DNA of 44,095 nucleotides from Isosphaera sp. (lineage in GTDB: Bacteria; Planctomycetota; Planctomycetia; Gemmatales; Gemmataceae): the NCBI GenBank assembly GCA_013822345.1, contig PNKH01000068.1, forward strand, positions 1 to 44,095, written 5' to 3'. A model generated the notes under the pieces. It did no database searches and had not been told where the DNA came from. It saw only the letters and a list, made by a program, of their open reading frames with translations. This document shows, one piece after another, positions 7,161-36,287 of the stretch. Each line of letters starts with the position of its first letter. Position 1 is the first letter of the stretch. A program made the position numbers and the translations under genes.

Positions 7161-7204
7161 CGGTTCGCTCGCGTCGCAGACGCGTCTGCGACGCGAGCGA
7201 ACCG
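7161..7204. repeat. perfect 44-bp palindrome, GCAGACGCGTCTGC family, copy 1
   Basis: Two 22-base arms with no loop, centred on ACGCGT, beginning one base after the DUF1501 stop. The central 24 bases are identical to the palindrome at 36238-36287, whereas the outer arms differ in a way that keeps each copy perfectly symmetrical. It sits between two convergent genes (DUF1501 plus, unknown secreted protein minus). Confidence 0.92.
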
Positions 7205-11413: not shown

Positions 11414-12601
11414 ATGTCACCCGCCCCCGCCCCCGTCCCGGACCACCGCCCCGCCCTCCCCCGCCGCCGGGACTGGCGGATCGGCTGCGCCGGCGCCGGG
11501 TTCGTGATGGCCGACTGCCACCTCGTCGCCTACCGGAACGCCGGGTTCAACCCCGTCGCCATCGCCTCCCGCACCCCGGCCCGCGCCCGCGAGGTCGCCG
11601 CCCGCCACGCCGTCCCCACCGTCCACGAGACGGTCGACGCCCTCCTCGCCGACCCGCGGGTCGAGGTGCTCGACGTGGCCGTCCCGCCGGCGGCCCAGCC
11701 GGACCTGATCCGCCGCGCCCTCGACCTCGGCCGCGGCCGGCTCCGCGGCATCCTCGCCCAGAAGCCGCTCGCCCTGTCGGTCGCCGACGCCCGCGACCTG
11801 GTCGCCCGGTGCGCCGCCGCCGGGGTGGTGCTCGGGGTGAACCAGAACATGCGGTTCGACCAGTCGGTCCGCGCCGCGAAGGACGTGCTGCGGCGCGGGT
11901 GGCTCGGCGAGGTGGTGCTGGCGACGATCGACATGCGGGCGGTGCCGCACTGGATGCCGTGGGCGGAGGGGCTGCCGAGCCTGTCGACGTTCGTGATGAG
12001 CGTCCACCACCTGGACACGTTCCGGTACTGGCTCGGCACCCCGGACCGGGTCCTGGCCAGCACCCGCCCCGACCCCCGCACCCGCTTCCCGCACCGCGAC
12101 GGCGTCAACCTGTACATCCTCGAGTACGACGCCGGCCCGCGGGCCGCGGCGTGGGACGACGTGTGGGCCGGACCGGTGGAAGTTCCAAGTTCCACAGTTC
12201 CAGGTTCCAAGTTGGAAGCAGCGGGATCGAACCTGCAACCTGGAACTGTGGAACTTGGAACTTCTTCGAGGTACATCCGGTGGCGGGTCGAGGGGACGGA
12301 CGGGCTGATGCAGGGGACGATCGGGTGGCCGCGGTACCCGGCCCGGGAGCCGAGCACGCTGGAGTACGCCACCCGCGACCGGCCGGGCGAGTGGGTCCGC
12401 CCGCGGTGGGACGAGGTGTGGTTCCCCGACGCGTTCGTCGGCACCATGGCCCAGCTGCTCGTCGCGATCGAGGACGGGACCGAGCCGGAGGTCTCCGGCC
12501 GGGACAACGTCGAGACGGTGGCCCTGTGCGAGGCGGTGTTCGCGGCCGCGGCCGAGCGGCGGGTGGCGGCGGTGAACGAGTTCCTCGGGGGCCGGATGTG
12601 A
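11414..12601 (+). CDS. Gfo/Idh/MocA-family oxidoreductase with in-frame palindromic insert
   Basis: 395 residues. The N-terminal Rossmann domain ([35 protein letters not shown]) binds NAD(P). The second half is the substrate-binding alpha/beta domain ([31 protein letters not shown]). The usual EKP motif is QKP. About 29-31 residues near position 255-285 ([18 protein letters not shown] and so on) are encoded by a palindromic repeat (12179-12264) between WDDVWAGP and [12 protein letters not shown], which would be nearly adjacent in a normal homologue. The frame is kept, so the gene is called intact. Such enzymes oxidise sugars or cyclitols; the substrate is unknown. The stop overlaps the next start (ATGTGA), so the two genes are translationally coupled. 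Confidence 0.88.
12179..12264. repeat. palindromic element inside a coding gene
   Basis: Two perfectly complementary 28-base arms (12179-12206 and 12237-12264, beginning GAAGTTCCAAGTTCCACAG) around a 30-base loop. The arms are about half G+C, far below the surroundings, and consist of reiterated TTCCAAG/TTCCAGG words. By my translation the element is open in all six frames. It adds about 29 codons to the oxidoreductase without breaking the frame, like Rickettsia palindromic elements. Confidence 0.92.
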
Positions 12602-13434: not shown

Positions 13435-13504
13435 GGCGAACCGCGGCCGTCAGGGAGCGGGTGTCCTTCACCCCCCACCCGCTCCCTGACGGCCGCGGTT
13501 CGCC
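13435..13504. repeat. REP-like inverted repeat, copy 2
   Basis: Perfect 29-base arms (13435-13463 and 13476-13504) around a 12-base loop, starting immediately after the stop of the membrane-anchored protein. Arm: GGCGAACCGCGGCCGTCAGG then GAGCGGGTG. Compared with copy 1 the arm has GCGGCCGTC for GCGACCGTC on both sides, so the pairing is conserved. CGAACCGCG again faces outward. The following GGAGGGG at 13505 serves as ribosome binding site of the Nudix gene. Confidence 0.92.
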
Positions 13505-15881: not shown

Positions 15882-15968
15882 GGGGGTGTCGCACCCGCTC
15901 CCGGACGGTCGCGGTTCGCCGTGGTGGCTGGCCAACCGCGACCGTCCGGGAGCGGGTGCGACACCCCC
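15882..15968. repeat. REP-like inverted repeat, copy 3 (opposite arrangement)
   Basis: Perfect 35-base arms (15882-15916 and 15934-15968) around a 17-base loop. Here the GCGGGTG ends face outward and the GCGGTT ends inward, the reverse of copies 1 and 2, showing that the repeating entity is a single unit of about 27 bases paired in either polarity. The core has CCGGACGGTC where copies 1 and 2 have CCTGACGG(T/C)C, changed on both arms. It lies upstream of murB and downstream of the glycosyltransferase; both genes are on the minus strand. Confidence 0.92.
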
Positions 15969-33209: not shown

Positions 33210-33217
33210 CGCCGGCG

Positions 33218-33348
33218 GAAGCGATCGGAACGCGGATGAAGAGGATCAAAGACCGGATGCAGAGGATCTGAACAGAGTTCGCATTTTTTGCGTCCAATCC
33301 TCTTCATCCTGCCTCTCATCCTCTGCATCCGCGTTCCGATCGCTTCCT
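33218..33348. repeat. 131-bp inverted repeat with ATGAAGAGGAT words
   Basis: Outer arms of 22 bases (33218-33239 and 33327-33348) match perfectly and begin GGAAGCGATCGGAACGCGGA. Inside, both arms carry two copies of the word GGATG(A/C)AGAGGAT in swapped order, giving partial pairing further in, and the loop contains TTTTTT (33285-33290). It fills most of the 187-base gap. This type of word repeat is familiar to me as widely dispersed in environmental bacteria. Confidence 0.85.
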
Positions 33349-36237: not shown

Positions 36238-36287
36238 CCCGGTTAGCGACGCGTCGCAGACGCGTCTGCGACGCGTCGCTAACCGGG
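36238..36287. repeat. perfect 50-bp palindrome, GCAGACGCGTCTGC family, copy 2
   Basis: Two 25-base arms with no loop. It begins six bases after the stop of the cytochrome gene and ends 26 bases before the DUF1501 ATG. The central 24 bases equal those of the palindrome at 7161; the flanks read CGGTTAGCGAC instead of CGGTTCGCTC, mirrored on the other side. Confidence 0.92.

Follow-up and report, generated by a model that had tools for sequence, protein, structure and literature searches.

Palindromes with tandem GTTCCA arms: an in-frame copy in a planctomycete oxidoreductase gene and a dispersed family in many phyla

Several described systems come close to the element reported here, and we summarise them from the passages cited. 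Rickettsia palindromic elements (RPEs) have been presented as families encoding a conserved peptide (PMC10969869, PMC3733652, citing Ogata 2000, 2002), those of R. conorii being described with a CGTC end (PMC3733652). GTAG/CGTC REPs are found mostly downstream of genes, where GTAG may supply the TAG stop, and are intragenic in several species including O. terrae (PMC3733652). In Geobacter metallireducens, tandem hepta- and octanucleotide repeats come in pairs, in classes 1 to 3 (GTTGCTYN, TCTCCGTS and MTYCTGA), which the authors regard as possible IHF/HU sites, and multicopy sequences are found within genes too (PMC2700814). Stems made of 7-nt motifs are known from the P6b loop of the Nostoc trnL intron, where one motif class has repeatedly replaced another (PMC4476775). 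Last, TAACTGA heptamers of Beggiatoaceae and others are direct repeats, mostly intergenic and patchily distributed across phyla, and the same paper cites a suggestion that 7 nt may be a polymerase-interacting length (PMC4679880). A preliminary description of this DNA knew of no RPEs described in planctomycetes; in-gene palindromes beyond Rickettsia had already been published, including in the PVC superphylum (O. terrae; PMC3733652). What is already published are in-gene REPs and paired tandem heptamers; what is new is their combination, with a cross-phylum spread and a turnover of words at one site. Among the papers listed on planctomycete and Gemmata palindromes, on heptamers and on GTTCCA itself (few subscription papers covered, the word judged by title), no description of the family was recognised.

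The starting point is a palindrome in the window, that is, the whole 44,095-nt stretch of Isosphaera sp. DNA that was analysed, whose features are as follows.

11414–12601, + strand: Gfo/Idh/MocA-type oxidoreductase gene with the in-frame palindrome, 395 aa, PF01408
12176–12274, + strand: 33 codons between WDDVWAGP and IRWRVEG, in place of the relatives' 10 (counted from residue numbers)
12179–12264, unstranded: whole palindrome, 86 nt, stop-free in all six frames
12179–12206, unstranded: perfect portion of the left arm, made of GTTCCA words joined by linkers A, CA and G
12207–12236, unstranded: inner imperfectly paired part and loop, which differs from the loops of other copies
12237–12264, unstranded: perfect portion of the right arm (left arm reverse-complemented)

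The preliminary description had reported an inverted repeat with perfect 28-nt arms, lying within the reading frame of the oxidoreductase gene without breaking it and free of stops in all six frames, and our own reading agrees with it on each of these points. The full repeat has 38-nt arms that are 92% complementary, with 10 nt between them, and only the outer 28 nt of both arms are a perfect complement. Its G+C content is 51% against 75–77% (about 75%) in the flanks, a ratio of two thirds where about half had been claimed. The arm motif GAAGTTCCAAGTTCCACAG occurs twice in the window (expected 0, 100 shuffles), and the RNA fold of the palindrome reaches -58.5 kcal/mol (z = -10.8); Rfam matches, to microRNA and HBV epsilon families, were set aside, being under the gathering scores and reflecting the hairpin only. 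This copy runs from GAAG to CTTC, with GGTG and TTCG as flanks. Both arms consist of tandem GTTCCA words separated by linkers of 1–3 nt, hence a period of about 7. An array of heptamers puts every codon phase in every frame, and the heptamer GTTCCAR is stop-free on either strand. However, about half of all heptamers (8264/16384) are stop-free in the same way, so an open array does not by itself point to adaptation.

Comparison with homologues, as the preliminary description had proposed, reveals what happened to the carrier gene. The set comprises 29 loci, the window gene and 28 homologues, of which 26 were aligned by motif (L015, L016 and L035 escaped this step, but the first two entered a further alignment). 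All 25 aligned relatives lack the palindrome, and 24 of them have 10 residues between WDDVW[AST]GP and the next strand, while a class-level relative (L030) has 18 and the window protein 33. Ten codons have thus been exchanged for a net gain of 23 residues, which is not a clean insertion. A DNA alignment with six homologues finds no counterpart of the 30 native nucleotides outside the palindrome. In an AlphaFold2 model built from 26 sequences (mean pLDDT 79.5), residues 249–285 have pLDDT < 50 and lie between predicted strands 243–248 and 288–294. The model makes a floppy surface loop the most likely form of the insert, the enzyme is presumably still functional with its 33 residues, and our best interpretation of the window copy is a passenger that is tolerated.

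This palindrome is not alone. The host genome yields nine BLAST matches (the window copy included, on both strands) and 30 near-matches to a two-word pattern at about ten places, against none for the control, while a pattern with two-base linkers, whose spacing is wrong, gave none either. Strict GTTCCA palindromes are found in 14/19 genomes of the genus, host included, where the control word has 0 matches; the strict pattern was not found in the other five, four of which are at least 95% complete. Among 392 sampled Planctomycetota genomes, the host genome is the only one with a GTTCCA palindrome, the reversed control word producing palindromes in three. In GTDB contigs at least 117 stretches contain the word-palindrome, against about 0.03 chance matches expected in the whole collection by our own arithmetic with equal bases. 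The 80 titles among the matches listed name, besides planctomycetes, Chloroflexi, Methylomirabilota, Acidobacteria, Elusimicrobia, Pseudomonadota, deltaproteobacterial lineages (counted as a phylum), Bacteroidota, Gemmatimonadetes, Verrucomicrobia and Spirochaetia. The element is therefore not confined to one distant phylum, since it is found under record titles, mostly of metagenome bins, of at least ten others. Twenty genomes picked for having a match contain 1–31 forward matches each, the reversed control word matching four times in G427 (the genome of the Tgt copy described below) and not at all in the other 19; these counts, like those for the 19 genus genomes, include overlapping matches of one element. 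Copies in the single-contig genomes G002 and G008 make an assembly artefact unlikely. Spread by viruses was rejected, GTTCCA being found in only two viral contigs, the same number as for one control word (another control word had none).

What do the copies have in common? After removal of 17 duplicates from 127 palindromes, 110 distinct ones remained, 46 from the genus and 64 from elsewhere (a few of the 127 with misplaced centres, such as L135, L145, L151, L164 and L215, were retained). Linkers are mirrored between the two arms of a palindrome: 49/73 pairs are identical in the genus (mean 22.5 and maximum 34 in 2000 shuffles) and 46/81 in other phyla (mean 28.0, maximum 40). Loops are another matter. 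Among the 780 pairs formed by 40 genus loops, 31 have a common 9-mer, which is mostly a short inner-arm stretch such as GTTGAAG, and the bulk of the loop is common to one pair only, L202/L206, whose flanks are 94% identical and which is thus one orthologous copy. Mirrored linkers and nearly unique loops indicate that arms vary as pairs and that the elements are unlike copies of one master. Inspection by eye reveals no target-site duplication at the window site or at a second in-frame site, in the glutamate synthase gene GltB; at both, local sequence has been replaced and there is no same-species empty site. Two further ideas were abandoned. That the loop is a remnant of native sequence is unsupported (best p = 0.14, by local alignment with four window homologue segments and one of GltB), and the outer stretch shared at L223 was dropped as proof of arm copying because the gene model makes part of it both genes' own stop codons.

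Most copies lie outside genes. A gene model seeded with known genes, which replaced a self-trained one, places 3/46 genus copies inside genes; of the remaining 43, 35 lie between co-directional genes, three between two stops and five between two starts, and for 24/41 stop-facing ends the distance to the stop codon is between -4 and +8 nt, all by gene models that are rough. An earlier count of '15 in-frame hairpins' was discarded, self-training on 400 kb of a 73% G+C genome having drifted to apparent antisense ORFs. Besides the window copy, the genus has in-frame copies in GltB of G010, identified by its Pfam glutamate synthase domains, and in an FAD/Fe-S oxidase of G004. At the GltB site native local sequence is replaced, as in the window, and G008 GltB, 96% identical over the searched stretch, lacks the palindrome. 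In other phyla 3/64 copies are in frame by a weak per-locus, self-trained model that served only to choose candidates: one is in Tgt of an acidobacterial MAG (residues 178 and 215 of the query correspond to 184 and 196 in PDB 1ozm), one, as predicted by that model, in GlcF of a verrucomicrobial MAG, and the sixth in-frame copy overall, L114 from Chloroflexi, is within a TP-rich linker. Candidate L093 was dropped (scores 0.7 and 0.7, right flank at a contig end), while L108 and L119 duplicate the genus elements L212 and L236, the latter outside genes by the pooled model. In-frame palindromes are hereby extended to planctomycete, acidobacterial and verrucomicrobial housekeeping genes. As for the coding-tolerant repeat of the preliminary description, the in-frame copies in conserved genes are in line with such tolerance, but 43/46 genus copies lie outside genes.

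How, then, does the family compare with known systems, as far as the cited passages describe them? Its resemblance to RPEs lies in short palindromes that are in frame in unrelated conserved genes, plausibly as tolerated loops. However, GTTCCA copies share arm words, have unique loops, sit mostly outside genes and occur in many phyla. The RPE-like behaviour that was claimed is thus right in one respect, a dispersed family in frame in several unrelated conserved genes, but there is no RPE homology, and kinship is contradicted by copies that share arm words without a common full-length sequence and by the missing CGTC tag at the window copy, the only one scored. Likeness to REPs/REPINs extends to a location mostly 3' of genes (the downstream placement typical of GTAG REPs/REPINs, which the genus copies have), a possible supply of TAG, and intragenic copies including those of a verrucomicrobium (PMC3733652). 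In contrast, GTTCCA arms are tandem words and not a 20–40-nt unit (PMC3733652), with neither tag at the window copy; GTAG, too, was scored at this copy only and is absent from it, the TAG at some others being the gene's own stop. The paired repeats of Geobacter are similar tandem words of about 7–9 nt that lie on opposite strands and, in classes 1 and 2, are variably spaced, and GTTCCA palindromes likewise have tandem 7–8-nt words on opposite strands at variable spacing; the words differ, however, the reading given is IHF/HU binding, and the cited passages of PMC2700814 contain no in-frame analysis. Nostoc P6b offers 7-nt stem motifs and class replacement at one site, but in a single intron loop, whereas GTTCCA hairpins are dispersed in the genome (PMC4476775). 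TAACTGA repeats are also mostly intergenic heptamers, patchy across phyla and with a few in ORFs, but they are direct repeats mostly upstream of start codons, not hairpins (PMC4679880).

One intercistronic site was followed through the genus. L205, L214 and L219 represent the same orthologous spacer, flanked by genes for a lolC/E-like permease and a lolD-like ATPase (names taken from best NCBIfam matches, which are under the curated cut-offs). Summed over three species pairs, 200/204 arm positions are identical, against 556/733 in the flanks and 44/72 in the loop. A search for LolD in the 19 genus genomes gave 18 close homologues (at least 75% identity) and 17 usable spacers (L417 is cut by a contig end and G018 has a distant match only). 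Four of these spacers have GTTCCA hairpins (G008, G013, G004, G009) and five have heptad hairpins of other words, read by eye as GTCATTN (G001, G000), GTTATTN (G006) and GCGGANT (G014, G002), with best lags of 7 or 14; heptad hairpins of about four words are thus present in 9/17 species. With the 8-nt words of G016 and the other palindromes of G010 and G003, hairpins of any kind reach 12/17. In G005 there are heptads without a strong hairpin, no hairpin was found in the spacers of G011, G012 and G017, and one further spacer is not fully readable. By eye, words also differ elsewhere: the host genome and G001 hold other palindromes at the place of the GltB copy, and G001 and G003 hold palindromes of other words at the oxidase site. 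lolC/E-lolD, GltB and the FAD/Fe-S oxidase are hence sites at which related species differ, having either no hairpin or other words.

Our preferred reading, to which we assign a probability of roughly one half, is that of a non-coding dispersed hairpin with tandem GTTCCA arms, shaped by slippage, template switching and purging selection. Arms would lengthen and shorten by slippage at the word period, and their pairing would be maintained either by hairpin-templated repair or by selection for pairing. Arms rather than whole elements would reach new sites, probably via template switching at replication forks, which would account for unique loops, lost local sequence and the lack of visible target duplication. 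Selection would then purge harmful copies, leaving intercistronic hairpins, some of which may serve as mRNA hairpins and become conserved, and a few in-frame copies that sit in surface loops and are tolerated since no frame of the word contains a stop. Loops that differ from copy to copy, arms that mirror each other, replacement of local sequence and turnover of words seem, taken together, to be fitted best by slippage and hairpin-templated copying at replication forks, but we infer this mode of spread and saw no hairpin move between sites. Nor would slippage and template switching be sufficient alone, since finding one word in distant phyla calls for transfer, a shared protein or convergence. 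A bolder generalisation, which we put forward tentatively, is that of a class of self-renewing word-armed hairpins present in many phyla, in which hairpin and period persist while the word is swapped wholesale, a transposase-free class defined by architecture that adds all-frame-open surface loops to proteins. Its period would be 7 nt at the sites followed and 7–9 nt more widely. Of 205 hairpins covered by a general survey of 1.2 Mb, 14 are periodic, with lags of 7 (two), 8 (five), 9 (four, two of them doubtful) and 3, 4 and 6 (one each), and no lag-7 hairpin in 400 kb of the host genome, so that 7 nt is not special in that survey. Either way, the origin, spread and overwriting of repeats with no known transposase become testable by strain sequencing.

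Selection is already part of this scheme, but it could also be the whole of it, the arms being selected binding sites (for a protein of IHF/HU type or another that binds the word) or REP-like stabilising mRNA hairpins, found between genes because that is where they act, and the in-gene copies mere side effects. Under either reading, conservation at lolC/E-lolD suggests, from sequence comparison, selection on at least some of the intercistronic copies, the simplest role being that of mRNA hairpins. An unmirrored linker pattern there, kept by eye in three species, argues against frequent arm-to-arm conversion at this site and for sequence-specific selection. That arms are more conserved than coding flanks, that 12/17 species have a hairpin in this spacer, that copies sit after stop codons, that the RNA fold is strong and that the Geobacter authors consider IHF/HU sites possible (PMC2700814) all point the same way. 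However, replacement of words at one site is incompatible with word-specific binding, five genus genomes (four of them at least 95% complete) do without the strict pattern, and a binding site gives no cause for in-frame copies in unrelated enzymes, which together make selection as the sole explanation rather unlikely.

A mobile element of REP/REPIN or RPE type, mobilised in trans by a RAYT (Y1) transposase, is an improbable alternative to slippage and template switching, and one already weakened. Y1 genes are indeed present in the host genome G000 (five matches) and in 5/6 other element-bearing genomes, and palindromes of other families adjoin some of those in G000. GTTCCA tandems, by contrast, are at none of the five G000 Y1 loci (one-base linkers only) and at none of 30 Y1 loci from other genomes (35 matches, 30 with loci), with about 1.5 kb inspected on each side in both cases; G429, which has the most element matches of the 20 selected genomes (31 forward), has no Y1 match, the window copy lacks GTAG and CGTC tags, and loops are not common to copies. 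The idea that each hairpin is a local inverted duplication of a short tandem heptamer, a common mutational outcome producing no dispersed family, would explain unique loops, other heptad words at the same sites, palindromes of the reversed control word (in 3/392 genomes of the phylum and four times in G427) and the one control word of two that equals GTTCCA in viral contigs, but it is very doubtful given that one word dominates the genus (14/19 genomes, the control matching in none) and turns up again in many phyla, with no control match in 19 of the 20 selected genomes.

GTTCCA palindromes share their genomes with other families. In 400-kb samples there are 102 hairpins in the host, a very high density (0 in block shuffles), 34 in G006 and 13 in G008; 138 of these 149 were taken (score at least 20, arms at least 18), three at stretch ends being set aside, and 6/96, 0/30 and 0/9, respectively, are in frame in genes. 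Two conserved proteins with in-frame palindromes of other families are threonine synthase (residues 256 and 283 of the query correspond to 208 and 211 in PDB 2zsj) and RarA (221 and 255 correspond to 217 and 229 in 3pvs). A second family, made of GGCGAACCGCGACCGTCAGGGAGCGGGTG and its complement, is found in the window at 1245–1321, 13435–13504 and 15882–15968, the copy at 13435 beginning directly behind a stop codon (ORF end 13434), and elsewhere in the host genome it has in-frame copies in the genes for GltB, threonine synthase and RarA and in a PKS-like one (names assigned by eye). Three of the five Y1 loci of the host (L293, L295 and L297) have palindromes of yet other families beside them, such as GGCAGGCAGGAATGCC and GTCCGAGCCCGAGCGC, as would be expected of REP/RAYT pairs. 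Further tandem words include GGGGTGAR-like ones of 8 nt, which form arms at L324:15711, L327:12091, L328:7741, L330:15380 and L337:6725. The window itself also contains a hairpin at 33217–33347, with 51-nt arms of 9-nt, GAAGAGGAT-like words (a family with three occurrences in 400 kb of genome sequence), and perfect loop-less palindromes around CGTCTGCGACGC at 7161–7204 and 36238–36287.
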